Source: Gammaproteobacteria bacterium (GTDB lineage Bacteria > Pseudomonadota > Gammaproteobacteria > SZUA-152). Taken from it: 11,588 bases of DNA. How positions within the stretch are numbered: position 1 is the stretch's first letter; every line of letters begins with the position of its first letter. The position numbers and the translations under genes were made by a program. Location of the stretch: contig JAUWVK010000043.1 in NCBI GenBank assembly GCA_030617485.1, forward strand, positions 1 to 11,588, written 5' to 3'. The notes beneath the pieces were generated by a model. The model was not told the DNA's origin, did not search any database, and saw nothing but the letters and a program-made list of their open reading frames with translations. Shown here piece by piece: positions 3,217-11,206 of the stretch.

Positions 3217-3588
3217 TCAGTTATCTATATTGGACAAACATTCTTTTGCTCTTTCCTTGGCCTGTTGTGTGCAGTTTAATTGCCCCTGTTTTTGTTCTTT
3301 GTGTTTTTTATCACAGGTATCGTAGTCCTGAATTAATGTCCAGTTGCATTGCATTTTTTGATTAAGTTTTTCTAGTAGGGCTCTTTGCTCGGTACGTTGT
3401 TCGCGAGCATCTCCAATTTCATCCAGAATTTGCTGGAGCTTTTGTTGTTGTTCTTTCAGCGCATCATTTTCTTCTGCATCATTTGCCCACGTTGTTGATG
3501 CGTGCGTGGTGAACAGGAGTATGCCAAGGGTAATTATAAAGCCCTGGATTCTCAGTTTTCTAGGTAAGACCTGAATGAGTGACTGCAT
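3217..3588 (-). CDS. Small exported coiled-coil protein with twin CX10C motif, unknown function
   Basis: I do not recognise a family. From the ATG at 3588 the product is 123 residues. It has a basic N-terminus, a hydrophobic stretch at about 15-29 and a likely signal-peptidase site after TTWA (residue 35), so it is probably periplasmic. Residues 40-78 are charged and rich in Gln, Glu, Leu and Lys, with a heptad-like pattern suggesting a coiled coil. The C-terminal part carries four cysteines at 81, 92, 106 and 117 in a regular CX10C-X13-CX10C arrangement, which suits a helical hairpin held by two disulfides. The frame is open upstream to an ATG at 3666 (149 residues), but that would put 26 extra residues before the signal peptide and start inside the region just after a terminator, so the later start is preferred. 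A candidate promoter at 3623-3651 fits it. The gene is convergent with the SCO gene. Confidence 0.7.
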   Translation of the reverse strand: MQSLIQVLPRKLRIQGFIITLGILLFTTHASTTWANDAEENDALKEQQQKLQQILDEIGDAREQRTEQRALLEKLNQKMQCNWTLIQDYDTCDKKHKEQKQGQLNCTQQAKERAKECLSNIDN

Positions 3589-3622
3589 TGCTTCAATACC
3601 GAGTTGTAGAAATAATACTCGT

Positions 3623-3651
3623 ATGATAAATGAGTTAGGGTGGATTTTAAA
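3623..3651 (-). promoter_or_regulatory. Candidate sigma-70 promoter for the small exported protein
   Basis: On the minus strand TTTAAA (3646-3651) and TATCAT (3623-3628) are separated by exactly 17 nt. This places a transcription start about 30 nt before the ATG at 3588 and downstream of the terminator of the preceding operon. The match is moderate at -35 and good at -10; this is inference from pattern only. Confidence 0.35.
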
Positions 3652-3671
3652 CATTTCCATTGCCATGGGAA

Positions 3672-3736: not shown

Positions 3737-4498
3737 TTAAGTGAGATAAAGTGAGCTTTTAACAGACAGCGGCAGTGAAGTGGTGGCTGAATTTGATCCT
3801 GGTATTTTTAATCCTGGGGTGAATTCGTGCAATATACCTTTCGCAACGCCTTGCATATCCGTGGCCACCTCGCTGTCATCATCTTCACCGGGGATAATTC
3901 CATCTTCACTCTGTAATAGAAACCCACCACATTCCAGTTCTAATGCAAGGAGGGACTCAGAGCTGTCGCAAAGGAATTCATAGAATCTTTTTGCTTCCTG
4001 TTTTGTTTTAGCTCCCAGCATTATTACAATGACATTAAAATCTGTTTCTAATGAGGCCAGAAAGGCCAGTTGATTGTAAGCAGCACGAATGCCTTGCAAA
4101 GAAGAATGAACAGCAATAATTAACCGATCGCTTTGTAAGGCCAGCGTTGTAGATGTTGACGTTACTGGAATTAGGCAAAAATCAGGAATGGATTTTTCTG
4201 GTTTATCACCAGATGGATTATTGTGCATTATAGGTGTTAATGAATCTATCCCGTTAAGACTTGCTTCTATATTAAGCACCATGCTGCTACGGTGTTGTTG
4301 ATTGAAGGCGCGATCAAGCTCGTAGACTATATAATCATCATTCTTTGAACTTAGTAATACTGGAATAATAAAAGTGTTTTTCCATACGGGTAATCGTTCA
4401 TTTTCATCACTTAGAAAATGGTGACTGATGTTCGTTAGACGGTGTTTTGACATGGTGGGTCCCATTGAATGGGTTTTTTTGTTGATTTCGTTTTTCAT
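3737..4498 (-). CDS. MinD/FlhG-like protein lacking the P-loop (pseudo-ATPase), partner of ParA
   Basis: A 253-residue protein that looks like a degenerate member of the MinD/FlhG/ParA superfamily. Residues 40-79 (WKNTFIIPVLLS... to ...SSMVLNIEA) follow the beta-alpha-beta rhythm of the family's N-terminus, but the GKGGxGKT loop is absent. DFCLIPV (106-112) sits where the Walker B strand should be and lacks a clear catalytic Asp. Residues 123-195 match the second half of FlhG/MinD best: the SDRLIIAVHSS strand, an AYNQL helix, the FNVIVIML strand, a QEAKRFYEFL helix and LALELECGGFLL. The tail from 196 is acidic, then low in structure. ATP binding is therefore unlikely. The gene starts 52 nt after the ParA-CBM48 gene and ends at a strong terminator, so it belongs to that operon, and a heteromeric or adaptor role for the ParA protein is the natural inference. 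ATGs at 4465 and 4453 are alternative starts. Homology is judged by pattern only. Confidence 0.65.
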   Translation of the reverse strand: MKNEINKKTHSMGPTMSKHRLTNISHHFLSDENERLPVWKNTFIIPVLLSSKNDDYIVYELDRAFNQQHRSSMVLNIEASLNGIDSLTPIMHNNPSGDKPEKSIPDFCLIPVTSTSTTLALQSDRLIIAVHSSLQGIRAAYNQLAFLASLETDFNVIVIMLGAKTKQEAKRFYEFLCDSSESLLALELECGGFLLQSEDGIIPGEDDDSEVATDMQGVAKGILHEFTPGLKIPGSNSATTSLPLSVKSSLYLT

Positions 4499-4550: not shown

Positions 4551-5804
4551 CTACGGAAGATGGAAACCATCGCTAACTTTTAGCATCGAATTATGAACAC
4601 CCATAGAATTCAGAATTTGTTCTGGATTAGTGGGATCATTTCGCCACTTGCCATCGATAACCAGTCGATATTGATATTCTCCAGGCTCTACAAAAAATAT
4701 TTTACGGATTGTCGTTTCTTCCAAGATTGTTTCAACACCTTGATCCGGAACCCAGTCATTGAATTCACCCGCGATTTTAAGATCCCGGCCACTGTAATCA
4801 GGGTATATTAATTCAACACGTTGAAGATCATTGGCATTTCCAGCAACAGTGAGTATATTTTCAGTCGCTTCTTCATCCAATTCGCTATTTATTTCATTGT
4901 TTAATTCATTCATTATCTCGTCGCAAATTTCAGCACTCAGAGCATCCTGATCAGGAGTGAGTCCATCGACAGACAATTCAGGAATAGCTTTTGCTTCATC
5001 AATCCTATGCATAAGCCATGTTAGTTCATCATTGGCGATAGCTTGTTCATTTGACGAACGACGTAAAATCTCATCAGCCAGCTCACGATAATCTTTTGCG
5101 GCGGTCGAACGTGGCTCGTACTGAATAATGGATTTTCCTTCACAGACAGACTCTTTGAGCCGAACAGTGTAATTGATCATTACTGGGAGGACATTGTCCT
5201 GGTATCTTTCCCAAATCCCCAGGAGGAATTTCCGACATAGTTTGGTACGTTTATCCACCATTGTCGGCAGCATATTAACCTCGATTTCAAGGTCATATTT
5301 CTGCGCAATCAGTTCTACTGTTTCGCTAAGTCGTTCGATGCCATCGATTGCGAAAAGGCTCATATCAATAGGAACAAGCACTCGATTAGCGGCGCGGATG
5401 GCGTTGATCGAAAGTAAGCCCAGAGCTGGTGGACAATCTATGACAACGTAGTCATATGTTGTTCCAAGTGTTTGAAGATGATCGTGGAGTTGGCGTTCTC
5501 GTTTTGGCATGTCCGCTAGAACATGTTCAATAGCAGCTAATGAGATTGTTGCAGGAATCAGATCGACCCCTTCACAAACATCCTGAATAATGGCTTCTGA
5601 TATTGGGAAATCCAGCGCGAAAACTTCATAAAGGCCTGGTTCTTCCTGTCGCCTTTGTCCTATACCAAGGGAAGCATGTCCCTGTGGGTCTGCATCAATA
5701 AGCAGTGTTTGATAGCCCTTTTCTCCCAGGCTAGCAGCAAGATTTATTGCTGTTGTTGTTTTGCCACAGCCACCTTTCTGGTTTGCAATTGCGATTATAT
5801 TCAT
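4551..5804 (-). CDS. ParA-family ATPase fused to a C-terminal AMPK/CBM48-type glycan-binding domain
   Basis: A 417-residue two-domain protein. Residues 1-249 are a complete ParA/Soj-type ATPase with deviant Walker A KGGCGKTT (10-17), the DADPQG motif (37-42), Walker B VVIDCPP (120-126) and the switch strand RVLVPIDMSLFAIDG. Residues 250-327 are a variable acidic linker. Residues 328-410 resemble the glycogen-binding domain of AMPK beta subunits (CBM48, isoamylase early-set fold): KIAGEFNDW (343-351), GEYQYRLVIDGKW (375-387), and Asn405 in VHNSM. Counterparts of the AMPK beta1 glucan contacts Trp100, Lys126, Trp133 and Asn150 are Trp351, Arg380, Trp387 and Asn405, so carbohydrate binding is plausible. 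A normal ParA ends near residue 255-265, so this is a fusion. A G-rich ribosome site (5808-5813) precedes the ATG, which overlaps the stop of a small upstream ORF. No ParB gene is present. Location in a core-gene context argues against simple plasmid partition. Confidence 0.9.
   Translation of the reverse strand: MNIIAIANQKGGCGKTTTAINLAASLGEKGYQTLLIDADPQGHASLGIGQRRQEEPGLYEVFALDFPISEAIIQDVCEGVDLIPATISLAAIEHVLADMPKRERQLHDHLQTLGTTYDYVVIDCPPALGLLSINAIRAANRVLVPIDMSLFAIDGIERLSETVELIAQKYDLEIEVNMLPTMVDKRTKLCRKFLLGIWERYQDNVLPVMINYTVRLKESVCEGKSIIQYEPRSTAAKDYRELADEILRRSSNEQAIANDELTWLMHRIDEAKAIPELSVDGLTPDQDALSAEICDEIMNELNNEINSELDEEATENILTVAGNANDLQRVELIYPDYSGRDLKIAGEFNDWVPDQGVETILEETTIRKIFFVEPGEYQYRLVIDGKWRNDPTNPEQILNSMGVHNSMLKVSDGFHLP
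4575..4823 (-). other. CBM48/AMPK-beta-like domain segment of the ParA gene
   Basis: This stretch encodes residues 328-410 of the ParA fusion, the early-set beta-sandwich domain. It is marked separately because it is the unusual part of the gene. The order FNDW, Y-Q-Y-R, DGKW, DP and HN matches AMPK beta carbohydrate-binding modules in sequence and spacing. Confidence 0.8.
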
Positions 5805-5898: not shown

Positions 5899-6381
5899 TT
5901 AGGCAACTTCATTTGAAGCGCTTTCATTATCGATAAAATTTGTTTTAGTTGATTCAAAGAACAAATCAGTTTGTTCCGGCTCTGGTTCACCACAGGTGAT
6001 GGCGGCTTCCCTTGCAAGCTCTGCCACAGGGTAGATCCATTCCTGTCCTGTTAGTGCTTCAAAGGCGGTTTCGCGATGCAATACCAAAATCACATCTCCC
6101 GTTGCCACCAATGACAGTTCGGTTAGAGGTGCAGTACAGGAAGGCAAAAAGTTGGTTAATGAAACAATGCTTTTGCGAATACGCTGGACAGAAACACCAG
6201 CATCGATGAGTTTTTTTGCTGTTTTCAGGGCCAGCAGGTTAGCGAAGGAGAAACGTGTGTGGCCACCTGGAGTTTGAAACTGTGGGTCGATGAGCCCGGT
6301 TTTTCGCCAGTAAGTGAGCTGACGACGGGAAAGCCCAGTGATCCTCATTACTTGCTGGCAGGTATAACCTGTGTCACCCAT
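5899..6381 (-). CDS. MerR-family transcriptional regulator
   Basis: A 160-residue DNA-binding regulator. Residues 6-75 form a MerR winged helix-turn-helix: YTCQQVMRITGLSRRQLTYW (helix-turn-helix), the TGLIDP turn, then the wing GGHTRFSFANLLAL and a helix AKKLIDAGVSVQRIRKSI. The C-terminal part (about 85-125) is a small domain with strands SLVATGDVILVL and EALTGQEWIYPVAEL. It has no cysteine pair typical of metal-sensing MerR proteins, so an organic or protein ligand, or none, is likelier. It ends acidic. The ATG at 6381 has AAGG 7 nt upstream. It is first in the operon with the small ORF, ParA-CBM48 and the MinD-like gene, and probably regulates it. A 10-bp-arm palindrome lies 76 nt upstream of the start and is a candidate operator. 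Confidence 0.9.
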   Translation of the reverse strand: MGDTGYTCQQVMRITGLSRRQLTYWRKTGLIDPQFQTPGGHTRFSFANLLALKTAKKLIDAGVSVQRIRKSIVSLTNFLPSCTAPLTELSLVATGDVILVLHRETAFEALTGQEWIYPVAELAREAAITCGEPEPEQTDLFFESTKTNFIDNESASNEVA

Positions 6382-6817: not shown

Positions 6818-8065
6818 CTAAAAATAACGCACGACCTCCAGCTGTAAATAACTATCATCTTTAACTCCAGACAATAGACTATTGCTGGGGATATTAATGA
6901 AGGCCTGTCCTTCAAGACTGGCTTTCCAATTATCACCAAATCGTCGGCTGGACTCAAGGCTGAGTAAACGGGTGGAATCATCACTGTCAGCAATAACACC
7001 CATCAGAAACTCTGTGGATTGTTCATCGTTCAGGGCCAGTCGGGCGCCGATTAAAATATCATCAGCAAATGGGGTGGTGGCATTGTCGCCACGATCATCA
7101 TGCATGATTTCAGAAATAACGCCGAGATCGAACGAGCTGTCTGCAAACCCGTAAAAAGTATATTCGAAACCTCCGCTCATGGCGGTATAACTTTCACCCA
7201 TACCAGAACGATTTATGGCTTCTACTTTCCATAACCAGTTATCCAGTGTCGCCTGTAAATCAATTCCCCATTGTTCAATGAGATTATAAACAGGTAGAAG
7301 CGCTGTGCTTAGCGAAGGGATGCCAGCGTTTGGTATAAAGAGGGGGTCGCGGCTTGTTCCGTTAAAATAGCTAACACCTATATCCCAGTCACCCAGTGCG
7401 TGTGACCAGCGTGCCGCATAGTCAATATGGCGATCTTCCTGAGAGGATTCATAAATAGCCATGTTGGTATCTACAGGAAGAGGAGAACGTAAACGTCCGT
7501 CCACACCGGGAAAGGTACGCTCGCGAAAGCCCGGTAAAACAAATAGATCAACGGTGCCCCAGTTGTTGATTAGAGCGAGATTAATCATCGGCTGGCCTAG
7601 TTTTTCTTCCCCATCAGGCGCTTCAACAAGATCTGTCTGGTTAATGATGTCGACCAGATGAGAAGACTCAGTGACACCCCAGAATAATTTGCGGATGCCA
7701 ACGCGAAGTTCCCAGGTGTCAGCGGCTTTTAGCCAGGTGAGCTCTCGAATGTCAGTATGAGTTCGTTCTTCGTCATGCTCATTCCGGCGAGCAAACGGTA
7801 CAAAGGTGAAGCTTTGATTACCATTATCCCAGTCGGTGAAAAATTCTGGCTGGATCGAGAAGGAAAGGTTGTTGCCATGTTGCCGAGTATCTGCAGGCGT
7901 ATCTGTAAATGCTCGATATTCACCGCTTATGTAGCCAGACCACTCACCTGCAATGCTTTGTGATGTGACTCCCAGGGCAAACAAACAACTGAACAGCAAG
8001 CATGTTGCTGATAGGTGTAGGGAAGACCGTGTCCGTTGTTTAAAGCACACAGTGTTAAGATGCAA
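6818..8065 (-). CDS. Outer-membrane beta-barrel protein of the RND/LolA-like export operon
   Basis: A 415-residue exported protein, probably an outer-membrane beta-barrel. A signal peptide spans about residues 14-39 and is likely cleaved after SQSIA. The mature part has alternating polar/aromatic strands throughout (for example NNLSFSIQPEFFTDW, TWELRVGIRKLFWGV, FEYTFYGFAD) and ends in YLQLEVVRYF, with the terminal Phe typical of BAM-inserted barrels. It resembles the alginate-export/DUF1302-like barrels often found beside RND exporters, but I cannot assign a family with certainty. There is no ATG in the N-terminal part. The TTG at 8065, 2 nt after the stop of the preceding gene, is taken as start and would need translational re-initiation; a GTG at 8050 is the alternative. 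It is last in the operon and would give the export route its outer-membrane component. Confidence 0.8.
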   Translation of the reverse strand: MHLNTVCFKQRTRSSLHLSATCLLFSCLFALGVTSQSIAGEWSGYISGEYRAFTDTPADTRQHGNNLSFSIQPEFFTDWDNGNQSFTFVPFARRNEHDEERTHTDIRELTWLKAADTWELRVGIRKLFWGVTESSHLVDIINQTDLVEAPDGEEKLGQPMINLALINNWGTVDLFVLPGFRERTFPGVDGRLRSPLPVDTNMAIYESSQEDRHIDYAARWSHALGDWDIGVSYFNGTSRDPLFIPNAGIPSLSTALLPVYNLIEQWGIDLQATLDNWLWKVEAINRSGMGESYTAMSGGFEYTFYGFADSSFDLGVISEIMHDDRGDNATTPFADDILIGARLALNDEQSTEFLMGVIADSDDSTRLLSLESSRRFGDNWKASLEGQAFINIPSNSLLSGVKDDSYLQLEVVRYF

Positions 8066-8067
8066 GC

Positions 8068-8868
8068 TTAACGCGCACGTTTCAAACTATTGCGGTCAAA
8101 GTCACGTTCTTTTAATCCCGTATTTAATTTGTAATTACTCCATAACAGGTCGGTGCTTTTTTTGGTCTGATGATTAACCATCGACATGCGAGTAGGGCGC
8201 CAGTATTTTTCCAGGTATTGTTTATAGTCTGTGCTGGTCAGTGTTTTTAATAAGGATTTTTTTCGGTCATAAAACTCTATTTTAAGAGGTTGATACATTT
8301 CCTTATCCAGCCAGGTTACCATTTTAGTGTAGCCTGAATGTTTGTACACGGGTTTGCGTTCAATAACAAAACAGTCACGCCCGTCTAGCTTTTCATCACG
8401 TAAATATTTGTAGGTATATTTTTCAACTTCCTGAGAAGATAAATCCTCATAAGCAAACTCGCTACCCATAAAGGGGCCAGATTTATTGCTGGAGGATATA
8501 CGTTTTACACGTTTTAAAGCTGGTAGGTAAAGCCATTGCTCGTCAGGTTTAAGTGCGTGGGTAAAACTTAAAAATGCAGTTCCTTTAATATCGCGGGGCG
8601 AGTCAAAAATACTGAGTGATTTATCACCATCATTGTTCATTTCTAATGTTTTGTTGTGAGTTTTACGTGTACTTTCCTTGCCGTGACGATTGCGAAGTGT
8701 CATATCCAGACTAGCTGTTTGATCCTTCCAGCCGGCATCTCGCTGGTCAGCTTCTTGAGCAATGGCCAGACCTTTTTCTTCTGGTGTTTCTGCTGCTATG
8801 GTTTTGGTGATAACAACAACAGGGAGGAGAAGCGTGACCCCTATAAAGAGTTTAATTAGTTTGTGCAT
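8068..8868 (-). CDS. Periplasmic LolA-like outer-membrane lipoprotein-sorting family protein
   Basis: A 266-residue periplasmic protein of the outer-membrane lipoprotein-sorting family with a LolA-like fold (the PF17131 type found next to RND exporters). Residues 1-26 are a signal peptide, likely cut after TIAA. The conserved core is at 92-143: RDIKGTAFLSF, then QWLYLPALKRVKRI and GPFMGSEFAYEDLS, followed by the typical DGRDCFVIERKP and YTKMVTWLDKE strands. LolA-like half-barrels bind acyl chains, so a role carrying a lipid or hydrophobic molecule across the periplasm is likely. The ATG at 8868 is chosen because GGAG (8876-8879) sits 7 nt upstream and the signal peptide begins there; the frame is open to 8925. 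The start overlaps the end of the RND gene by 17 nt, and the next gene begins 2 nt after its stop, so expression is tightly coupled. Confidence 0.88.
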   Translation of the reverse strand: MHKLIKLFIGVTLLLPVVVITKTIAAETPEEKGLAIAQEADQRDAGWKDQTASLDMTLRNRHGKESTRKTHNKTLEMNNDGDKSLSIFDSPRDIKGTAFLSFTHALKPDEQWLYLPALKRVKRISSSNKSGPFMGSEFAYEDLSSQEVEKYTYKYLRDEKLDGRDCFVIERKPVYKHSGYTKMVTWLDKEMYQPLKIEFYDRKKSLLKTLTSTDYKQYLEKYWRPTRMSMVNHQTKKSTDLLWSNYKLNTGLKERDFDRNSLKRAR

Positions 8869-11206
8869 GTGTATTCTCCACAGTATTTTTTTCATTTGAA
8901 GGTGTGGGCATATCTTTGTGATCAAGCTTTATTAGCAGGGGTGGCAGTAAAAAGAAGTCTGCGATTAGTGCGAAGCAAATAACTATGGCGGTTAATAAGC
9001 CCATCCCGGAGTTTAATTCAAAGCTGGACAGTGAGAGCACCAGGAACCCGGTAATGAGTACGATGGATGTGGTGAACAGTGCCATACCAACCGTGCGAAA
9101 GGCGTAACGAACAGCATCTTCACTGCTTAGCCCATTCTCTCTTCTGGCGCGCAGGTATTTGCTGAGGAAATGCACTGTGTCATCGACGACAATGCCCAGT
9201 GTCATGCCGGCTACAATAGAAAGACCAAGGCCAATTTCACCTACGGTTAACCCCCAAAGTCCGAACCCCATGGTGGCAGGCACAAGGTTAGGGATCATGC
9301 TGATTAGCCCAATTCTAAATGACTTTAGTGCGAAAATAAGAATAAGCGAAATGCCGATTAAGGCGAGCGTTGTGCCCATCAGCATACTAATGATGTTACG
9401 TTTTCCAATATGGGCAAACATAATAGAAGTGCCACTGCTTTCTGCTTTAGCGAAGTGTGTTGTGTTAGCTTTCAACCATTTATTTGCACGTATTTCCAGG
9501 GCAAGTAAATCGTTGGTGGACATGGTTTCAAGTGTGGCAGTAAAACGAGTCGCTGATTTTTCCACATTAATTTGATTATTGAGATCGAGGCCGTACGGTA
9601 ATGACATTTCGAACAGCAATAGATACTGCGCAGAAAGGTCTCGTTCATCAGGCAGTCGATACCATTCAGGGTCATCACCATGCAGGTTTTTGTTTAAACG
9701 TTTCATGGTGTCAGATAACGTATTAACATGAATGGTTTCAGGCTGGGCGCGGTACCACTTGGAGAAGGCCGCAACATCTTTTAGAAACTCCGGATTGCTG
9801 ATGCCGCCAGGTTCTCCTGAATCCAGGGAGTAGTCGATAATATAAAGTCCGCTGAGGTTTTCAGTCATAAAATCAGCATCTTTTCGAAAGCTAACGGATT
9901 CATCAAAGTAATGAACAAAAACGTCATTAAGTTCATTGCGAGGTACTGAAATCGCCAATATGACGACAACAATACCCATGCCCCACATTAAACCTTTTTG
10001 TTTAGCAACGACAAAATCACCCAGTTTGACCATGAAGTGGCTATCATCACTTTTTCTTAGGGTTGTTTTTACCGGGAATATCGTCATGAATGCCGGCAAG
10101 AAGGCAACAGACAAAACGAATGAAACGATAACGCCTGCAGAAGTCATAATTCCCAGGTGGTGAAAAGGCGGTACATCAGCAAACAACATGCTTAGGAAAC
10201 CTATTGCTGTTGTGAGGCTGGCCAGGGAGACAGGTTGCATGTTGATACGAAGACTTTCGACAATAGCCTCTTTTTTCTCACGGCCTAGTCGCATCTCGTG
10301 CAGCATGGTGACCAAAATATGCACACAGTTAGCAATAGCAATGGTTAATATGATGGTAGGCGTTGATGCTGATGGTGGTGTTATTGGGAAACCAAGATGA
10401 CCACCAAAACCCATGCCGGCAAGAATCGAAAACATGATGACGATTAACGTGCCAACAGTGCCGGTAAATCCGCGAATCATTAAGCCGAGGGTGATTAACA
10501 TAAGCGCAAAGCTAATCGGCACCAGCGATTGCATATCCGATTTTGATGCTTCAGAGAAGGCATTGTTCATGAACACCATGCCGCTGAGGTAAATATCAAT
10601 ATTAGGGAATTCAGCTTTTATTTCTGCCGCAAGGTTACGGGAAAATGCCACGACCTCTGGTACCTCGGTCAGGCTTTCTCCCGGTAACTGTATGGTGATA
10701 TTAATGCCGGTGACATGGCTGCGATCAGGTATGAGTCGGTTGAGCAGTATCGGTTCAGAAAGGGCAACCTTTTTAATCTTGCTCCTGTTTTCATTGTCCA
10801 GTGTTATCTCTTCACTAACAAGATCACGAACAATCAGATCATCTTCACTGGCTTCGGTATGCTGGAAATTGGAAATTGAATCAACGCGGATAGAATAGGG
10901 AATTTGCCAGGCTTTTTCTGTGAGGTTTTTTACCGCAGCGAGAGTTTGTTCATCAAAGGCATCACCTGATTTAGGTGCCAAAATAAACATGACGTTGTCA
11001 TTCTTGGTGTAGCTTGCTTCCAGCTCTTCAAAGGCCAGTAGCTGGGGATTATCCGCACTGAAAAAGACTCGGTAATCTGTTTTAAAGGCAAGATTTTTAC
11101 CTCCGCTGGCTGCGGCCATTACCAGTAATAGTGAAGCGAGGATGGTTATCCATGGGTGACTGACTACCCAGTTGGCGTAGCGAATGGTTAATGAAGATTC
11201 TTTCAT
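8852..11206 (-). CDS. RND-superfamily exporter (MMPL/COG1033-type)
   Basis: A 784-residue inner-membrane transporter of the RND superfamily, the MMPL/HpnN-like branch that exports lipids and other hydrophobic compounds with proton motive force. It has the internal duplication of the family: TM1 at about 18-36, a periplasmic domain at 37-225, a membrane bundle of five helices at 226-378, TM7 at about 405-422, a second periplasmic domain to about 600, and a second bundle at 605-760. Family marks include TDYRVFFSADNPQL after TM1. The second-half helix TLGIVVDDTVHFLSKY (669-684) has Asp675/Asp676. In the first half the equivalent is IANCVHIL (291-298), with Asn instead of Asp. The ATG at 11206 has GGGAG (11213-11217) 6 nt upstream. 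It is the first gene of a three-gene operon with the LolA-like and barrel proteins. No membrane-fusion protein or TolC gene is adjacent, so it is not a classical drug-efflux set. Confidence 0.92.
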   Translation of the reverse strand: MKESSLTIRYANWVVSHPWITILASLLLVMAAASGGKNLAFKTDYRVFFSADNPQLLAFEELEASYTKNDNVMFILAPKSGDAFDEQTLAAVKNLTEKAWQIPYSIRVDSISNFQHTEASEDDLIVRDLVSEEITLDNENRSKIKKVALSEPILLNRLIPDRSHVTGINITIQLPGESLTEVPEVVAFSRNLAAEIKAEFPNIDIYLSGMVFMNNAFSEASKSDMQSLVPISFALMLITLGLMIRGFTGTVGTLIVIMFSILAGMGFGGHLGFPITPPSASTPTIILTIAIANCVHILVTMLHEMRLGREKKEAIVESLRINMQPVSLASLTTAIGFLSMLFADVPPFHHLGIMTSAGVIVSFVLSVAFLPAFMTIFPVKTTLRKSDDSHFMVKLGDFVVAKQKGLMWGMGIVVVILAISVPRNELNDVFVHYFDESVSFRKDADFMTENLSGLYIIDYSLDSGEPGGISNPEFLKDVAAFSKWYRAQPETIHVNTLSDTMKRLNKNLHGDDPEWYRLPDERDLSAQYLLLFEMSLPYGLDLNNQINVEKSATRFTATLETMSTNDLLALEIRANKWLKANTTHFAKAESSGTSIMFAHIGKRNIISMLMGTTLALIGISLILIFALKSFRIGLISMIPNLVPATMGFGLWGLTVGEIGLGLSIVAGMTLGIVVDDTVHFLSKYLRARRENGLSSEDAVRYAFRTVGMALFTTSIVLITGFLVLSLSSFELNSGMGLLTAIVICFALIADFFLLPPLLIKLDHKDMPTPSNEKNTVENTHAQTN

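Follow-up and report, generated by a model that had tools for sequence, protein, structure and literature searches.

The window, that is, the whole 11,588-nucleotide stretch of gammaproteobacterial DNA analysed here, carries on one strand a MerR-type gene, a gene in which a ParA ATPase is fused to an AMPK1_CBM domain, and the gene of a 253-residue partner protein, with gaps of 94 and 52 bp between them. The earlier note on this DNA had placed the fusion gene correctly; that the reading frame lies on the minus strand is added here, as are the MerR and partner genes, which that note did not mention, and the occurrence of the fusion across phyla, which it could not see. The features are as follows.

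5899..6381, minus strand: MerR-type helix-turn-helix protein, 160 aa, 94 bp upstream of the fusion gene (Pfam MerR_1, 1.6e-13)
4551..5804, minus strand: ParA-CBM48 fusion protein, 417 aa (Pfam AAA_31 and AMPK1_CBM)
5055..5804, minus strand: Soj-like ParA domain, residues 1-250, with the deviant Walker A motif QKGGCGKTT
4824..5054, minus strand: acidic linker of variable sequence, residues 251-327, partly helical (from column entropy and the AlphaFold model)
4572..4823, minus strand: AMPK1_CBM/CBM48-type domain, residues 328-411, with W351, R380, W387 and N405
3737..4498, minus strand: degenerate FlhG/MinD-like partner without a P-loop, 253 aa, 52 bp downstream of the fusion gene
4409..4438, minus strand: LTNISHHFLS motif of the partner (residues 21-30), lying in its basic N-terminus, which is predicted to be disordered
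3217..3666, minus strand: co-directional ORF, 149 aa, 70 bp downstream of the partner gene, of doubtful membership in the system

The 149-residue protein gave no Pfam match over the cut-off. An adjacent co-directional cluster (6818-11206, minus strand) encodes an MMPL-family transporter, a LolA-like protein and a 415-residue protein, the last again with no Pfam match over the cut-off.

Domains of the fusion protein

The fusion ORF is a Soj-like ParA with a C-terminal AMPK1_CBM domain. Its N-terminal part is a complete ParA ATPase, as had been supposed. Pfam AAA_31 (ParA) covers residues 1-174 with an E-value of 1.5e-53, the domain has the ParA fold, and the deviant Walker A motif (KGGxGKT) retains its signature lysine in the form QKGGCGKTT. 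Lys10 and Lys15 are found in all 69 rows of alignment A3. Arginine occupies R200 and R215 of the window protein, which we take to be Soj-like DNA-binding positions. The AlphaFold model of the fusion has a mean pLDDT of 87.9, with blocks of the CBM between residues 331 and 410 reaching 93-97. The fold search was made with this whole model; the matches shown were to the ParA domain and say nothing of the CBM. The intervening linker is acidic by eye, as the earlier note had it, but in the model it is partly structured, with helices at 234-272 and 287-310 and values below pLDDT 50 at 309-324. It is also the most variable part of the protein, its mean column entropy in A3 being 2.89 as against 1.36 for ParA and 1.62 for the CBM.

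The proposed relationship of the C-terminal region to the AMPK-beta glycogen-binding module is upheld by a domain search, in which Pfam AMPK1_CBM (PF16561) matched residues 337-411 with 36.6 bits (curated cut-off 26.8). The best PDB matches of this region are likewise AMPK beta chains, at 5.2e-7 when the whole fusion protein is used with phmmer and at 1.6e-9 with a profile of 11 CBM domains, so the likeness is far beyond chance. In AMPK beta1, residues W100, K126, W133 and N150 are described as critical for carbohydrate binding in the part of the source available (PMC4032982). Their counterparts in the fusion are W351, R380 (a conservative change), W387 and N405. Across 152 aligned rows, which include five repeats and two sequences without a P-loop, both tryptophans are invariant, the R380 position is Arg or Lys in 149 and Gln in three, and the N405 position is Asn in 136, Thr in nine, Asp in six and Ala in one. 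These figures are partly biased, since 54 of the rows were collected by patterns containing one of the two tryptophans and 16 by patterns containing both. The count was therefore repeated in 45 further relatives found by their ParA domain alone. Here both tryptophans and the asparagine are present in 45 of 45, and the arginine in 44 (one Gln), so that the conservation claimed for the sugar-contact residues holds in sequences gathered independently of the CBM. The domain thus shares both sequence family and contact residues with the AMPK beta glycogen-binding domain. It differs in being joined to a ParA ATPase, outside any kinase complex, and in the second contact residue, which is Lys in AMPK (K126) and predominantly Arg in the ParA-CBM fusions. 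From these likenesses, the domain would be expected to bind glucan.

Distribution of the fusion and its link to glucan genes

A search with residues 250-417 returned 81 homologous protein clusters, of which 80 have both PF13614 and PF16561; the other, P0044, has the CBM only. When one genome per species was scanned, the best 80 of at least 117 confirmed CBM loci were retained. The CBM is fused to a KGGCGKT-type ParA with intact P-loop in 54 of these 80. By label, 33 of the 54 belong to Planctomycetota, nine to Omnitrophota, six to Gammaproteobacteria and two to Rokuibacteriota, with one each from Myxococcales, Auribacter, Eisenbacteria and Nitrospira, giving eight phylum-level labels overall. 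The Nitrospira label is the name of a MAG, whose ParA branches with the gammaproteobacterial group. The survey of other genomes that the earlier note had called for therefore finds the same fusion widely, and its confinement to one lineage is ruled out. No plasmid record covering at least 80% of the query was present among the best-scoring 5000 records, and none of 235 pattern-fitting stretches in viral_contigs was confirmed. One CBM ORF (L002:7800-8288) starts with what appears to be the end of a ParA domain, and may be an interrupted gene or an assembly error.

The fusion forms a dedicated subfamily of wide occurrence. Among 8000 candidates scored in a search with the ParA domain only, the best 120 all carry PF16561, down to about 57% identity. 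In a quick tree of ParA domains, 65 fusions fall on one side of a branch from 12 CBM-less ParAs (SH-aLRT 97, no bootstrap). A single origin of the fusion is likely rather than proven, because this outgroup is small, the 12 sequences having been drawn from five genomes.

An association with glucan metabolism is seen both in gene neighbourhoods and in genome content. In five of nine Omnitrophota loci (L027, L030, L034, L048 and L075) a GH57-type gene lies two or three places upstream of the fusion; the one member scanned with Pfam, in L027, was confirmed at 5e-60, and in all five genomes a GH57 match lies within about 2-3.5 kb of the CBM match. Among 274 sampled gammaproteobacterial genomes the CBM is present in 13 (12 fusions and the CBM-only G130), leaving out weak matches in G102 and G246. 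GlgA (E <= 1e-30) occurs in all 13 as against 138 of the 261 others, GH57 in all 13 as against 104, and the two together in all 13 as against 98 (Fisher p 3.4e-4, 1.0e-5 and 5e-6, respectively, uncorrected for kinship). The 12 fusion genomes alone give p 6.4e-4 for GlgA and 2.6e-5 for GH57, again uncorrected for kinship.

GH57 was found in 46 of the 50 fusion genomes searched (out of the 54), the four without it being G008, G041, G049 and G050. Strong GlgA matches are confined to 18 of the 50: six Gammaproteobacteria, the Nitrospira-labelled MAG, Auribacter, nine Omnitrophota and Eisenbacteria. PF08323 gave only divergent GT5-type matches in 29 Planctomycetota (best E-values 7e-22 to 5.5e-6), none in G049, and weak matches in two Rokuibacteriota, so a classical GlgA is not established in these two groups. 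In 17 Planctomycetota genomes, picked for having both, the GT match lies 1.4-2.3 kb from the GH57 match; a first GT match of G015 is on another contig. PF02922 was rejected as a count of glucan enzymes, since 48 of 50 genomes exceeded its cut-off but many of the matches are the fusion itself. Glycogen phosphorylase (PF00343) lends no support, being matched in three of 57 genomes of one order (G337, G348 and G355), none of them with the fusion. Support for the alpha-glucan connection, from the GH57 neighbours and from the co-occurrence of GlgA and GH57 in the Gammaproteobacteria, is independent, though indirect.

Some neighbours of the fusion may be recorded here. Eight Omnitrophota loci (L021, L027, L030, L034, L038, L048, L050 and L075) share a clustered gene upstream of it, whose product, judged by eye, resembles a membrane protein, with a EIYEHLANIYLD-like N-terminus and a beta-sandwich at the C-terminal end; it is possibly a membrane-bound partner. 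In L001 the opposite strand bears, upstream and about 1.1 kb away from the fusion, a 458-residue ORF that is neutral invertase-like by eye. In L085, L103 and L106, all from one gammaproteobacterial order, the fusion is followed by an ORF of 304-306 residues resembling a hexose-6-phosphate epimerase by eye.

The partner and MerR genes

The window partner gave no Pfam match, to an ATPase family or any other, and contains no GK[ST] of a P-loop Walker A. By hhalign the partner profile matches the ParA family (84%, E 7.2e-6), and in Foldseek the model (mean pLDDT 74.7) has FlhG as its top match (4rz3, E 1.2e-8, TMq 0.54); the overall rmsd is high, at 8.7. The best folds are those of FlhG and FleN, FleN-FleQ complexes included. 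The partner therefore shares the fold of FlhG, FleN and MinD by Foldseek, and differs from them in that the window copy has no P-loop, matches no Pfam family and carries a ParB-like motif in a disordered N-terminus, the first 40 residues having a pLDDT of about 50. Within this motif L21, I24, H26, F28, L29 and S30 are each kept in at least 90% of the 40 rows of alignment A4, and the form L..[IV]SHxFLS is seen in Gammaproteobacteria, Planctomycetota, Auribacter, Rokuibacteriota and Eisenbacteria. It is directly preceded by LG[RK]GL in L065, L039, L057 and L022.

The neighbourhood of the fusion was searched with profiles in a set of 80 loci that holds two repeats (L001/L081 and L009/L108). A match to the partner profile lies beside the fusion in 31 of these 80 (30 of the 78 distinct loci); the profile was built in part from 13 of the 31 partners, and 14 of the 31 are training loci or a repeat of one. 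In other genomes the profile matches ORFs of FlhG-like size at about 1e-8 to 1e-19, which are known by size and match only. A strong match (G229:C250, 4.6e-83) occurs in a genome without a CBM match. An ORF of about 190-220 residues follows the partner in L088 (2454-3050) and L006 (8956-9537), and is the second gene downstream in L008, L010 and L022. The products from L010 and L022 cluster by BLAST with that of a Rokuibacteriota gene (L057), and these three gave no Pfam match; by eye the other copies are alike, as is the C-terminus of some Planctomycetota partners.

A MerR profile, built from four of the matched loci and the window, finds a match beside the fusion in 22 of these 80 loci (21 of 78 distinct), all of them from Gammaproteobacteria, the Nitrospira-labelled MAG and the Myxococcales locus. 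Several fusions of one gammaproteobacterial order have neither a MerR nor a partner match.

In L006 and G130 no ParA is present at the locus, which consists of a MerR-like ORF, a CBM-only ORF (97 or 116 residues), the partner and a further ORF (193 or 198 residues). The partner was recognised by its profile in G130; in L006, whose copy shows no recognisable motif, it was identified by eye. Thus the CBM and the partner stay together when ParA is absent. This retention speaks for a functional CBM, but also for a role in which ParA is not always required.

Proposed role and its alternatives

The occurrence of a ParA with a glycogen-binding domain in many distant bacteria points to a hitherto undescribed system for the positioning or sensing of stored sugar. 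The reading that we hold most likely is that the fusion serves as ATPase in a spatial-organisation system of the ParA type, with an alpha-glucan, most probably glycogen, as cargo, and we put the probability of this at roughly 0.4. ATP-bound ParA dimers would sit on the nucleoid while the CBM48 domain, on its flexible acidic arm, would grip glycogen granules. The pseudo-FlhG/MinD partner would present its ParB-like N-terminal peptide, triggering ATP hydrolysis and release, so that granules might be distributed over the nucleoid and divided between the daughter cells. We infer all of these steps, from DNA and glucan binding to the activation of the ATPase and the positioning of granules, and also the place of the glucan as cargo rather than signal. 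On this reading the partner would be an activator of a new kind. The wider proposal, of a pan-bacterial system for positioning and inheriting glycogen granules in which ParA holds the polysaccharide through CBM48 and the pseudo-FlhG/MinD protein acts as a ParB-like activator, is tentative and slightly less probable. If correct, a storage polysaccharide would be recognised by the ATPase itself, a new class of ParA cargo and a new mode of recognition, with a bearing on how a cell places its glycogen granules and passes them on when it divides. As the fusion is widespread, its operon short and its four contact residues known, the proposal lends itself to direct testing.

In favour of positioning we count the intact Soj-like ParA together with the retained glucan-contact residues, the conservation of the fusion and the partner matched beside it in 31 of 80 loci, and also the GH57 neighbours in Omnitrophota with the co-occurrence of GlgA and GH57. 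Charged, disordered N-termini of ParA/MinD ATPase partners are described, in the parts of the sources available, as binding the ATPase and stimulating it (PMC10241942, PMC12462528); the disordered N-terminus of the partner fits this and is therefore counted too. The LG[RK]GL that precedes the partner motif is found in the ParB of genome G130 too, close to its start, MAAKKRGLGRGL. Elsewhere in G132 and G172 a separate soj adjoins parB, which favours positioning and rules out a chromosome-segregation role of the fusion in these two genomes. G025 and G033 have parB with no adjoining ParA among the matches listed, so nothing is shown on segregation there.

A number of observations count against positioning. 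The Soj-like basic positions are not strict, Arg or Lys being found at R200 in 53 and at R215 in 67 of the 69 rows of A3. No partner profile match lies beside the fusion in 49 of the 80 loci; the motif of the partner has decayed in L007 and L010, and in Rokuibacteriota (L039 and L057) the protein carrying it gives no match to the partner profile. The ParA-less arrangement of L006 and G130 is not predicted by a pure ParA-transport model. Within one order the GlgA link is weak (14/14, one of them partial, G366, versus 33/43; p 0.044), and at the threshold applied none of the 14 fusion genomes has glycogen phosphorylase. Neither GlgA nor GH57 was found in the Myxococcales genome G008, Planctomycetota gave only divergent GT5-type matches, and in G132 and G172 the fusion lies far from glgA.

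The main alternative is a glucan-responsive switch, in which CBM48 would read glycogen or oligosaccharide status, as it does in AMPK beta, and gate the ParA/pseudo-FlhG pair, which might in turn have a different target, reached for instance by way of the MerR protein, by analogy with FleN acting on FleQ. Such a switch would account for the MerR matches in 22 of the 80 loci, for the FlhG and FleN folds, FleN-FleQ complexes among them, and for the loci L006 and G130, where CBM and partner persist without ParA next to a MerR-like ORF. We consider it rather unlikely: in the 80 loci searched with the profiles the MerR matches are limited to three groups while the fusion reaches further, and a ParA with intact P-loop is kept in 54 of the best 80 of at least 117 CBM loci. 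It is more improbable that ParA fixes a glucan-bound scaffold which targets enzymes such as GlgA and GH57 to the granule. Plant PTST-type proteins, which are starch-targeting CBM48 proteins, offer an analogy, and the GH57 genes close to the fusion in five of the nine Omnitrophota loci and the co-occurrence with GlgA and GH57 fit the idea, but in those gammaproteobacterial and Planctomycetota loci that were inspected by eye no glg gene was recognised next to the fusion.

Least probable of all, in our judgement, is that CBM48 has lost sugar binding and now binds proteins or has a structural role. This would be in keeping with the protein contacts that AMPK-type CBMs also make. Conservation of the FN.W tryptophan carries little weight by itself, that residue being common throughout CBM48 folds, and N405 has another residue in its place in 16 of 152 rows. 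Set against this, the DGxW tryptophan is invariant both in the 152 rows and in the 45 relatives found without the CBM, R380 is Arg or Lys in 149 of the former and Arg in 44 of the latter, and Asn is present at the N405 position in all 45.

Positioning of a glucan by this fusion would stand apart from the known systems in several ways. In ParABS, Soj/ParA works with ParB; the fusion has in addition a C-terminal CBM, no cognate ParB lies beside it, and the protein encoded downstream is a pseudo-FlhG/MinD with an FlhG-like fold and no Pfam match. BcsQ of cellulose synthase, which works with BcsR and BcsE, has to our knowledge no CBM, and the fusion scores 81.1 bits with NCBIfam TIGR03371, well below the cut-off of 157.85. 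McdA/McdB of carboxysome positioning is set apart by description, since there the partner links the cargo, whereas here it is the ATPase that carries the glycan-binding domain. As cargos of ParA/MinD ATPases, the available part of a published account names the chromosome, divisome, carboxysome, flagellum and chemotaxis cluster, and the word glycogen is absent from its main text (PMC10241942). A grip on the cargo by ParA instead of the partner departs from the systems presented in that part of the account, and to this extent also argues against positioning. A literature search, with supplements, preprints and most subscription papers outside its scope, found among the papers listed no account of a ParA with a CBM48 or glycogen-binding domain, and nothing joining a ParA-family ATPase with glycogen granules or the nucleoid beyond a Thermoproteus genome report. 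The Phycisphaerae genomes G025 and G033 encode several further KGGCGKT-type ParAs without a CBM (L115, L118, L120, L121 and L124), and that of L115 follows genes that by eye resemble those of pilus assembly.
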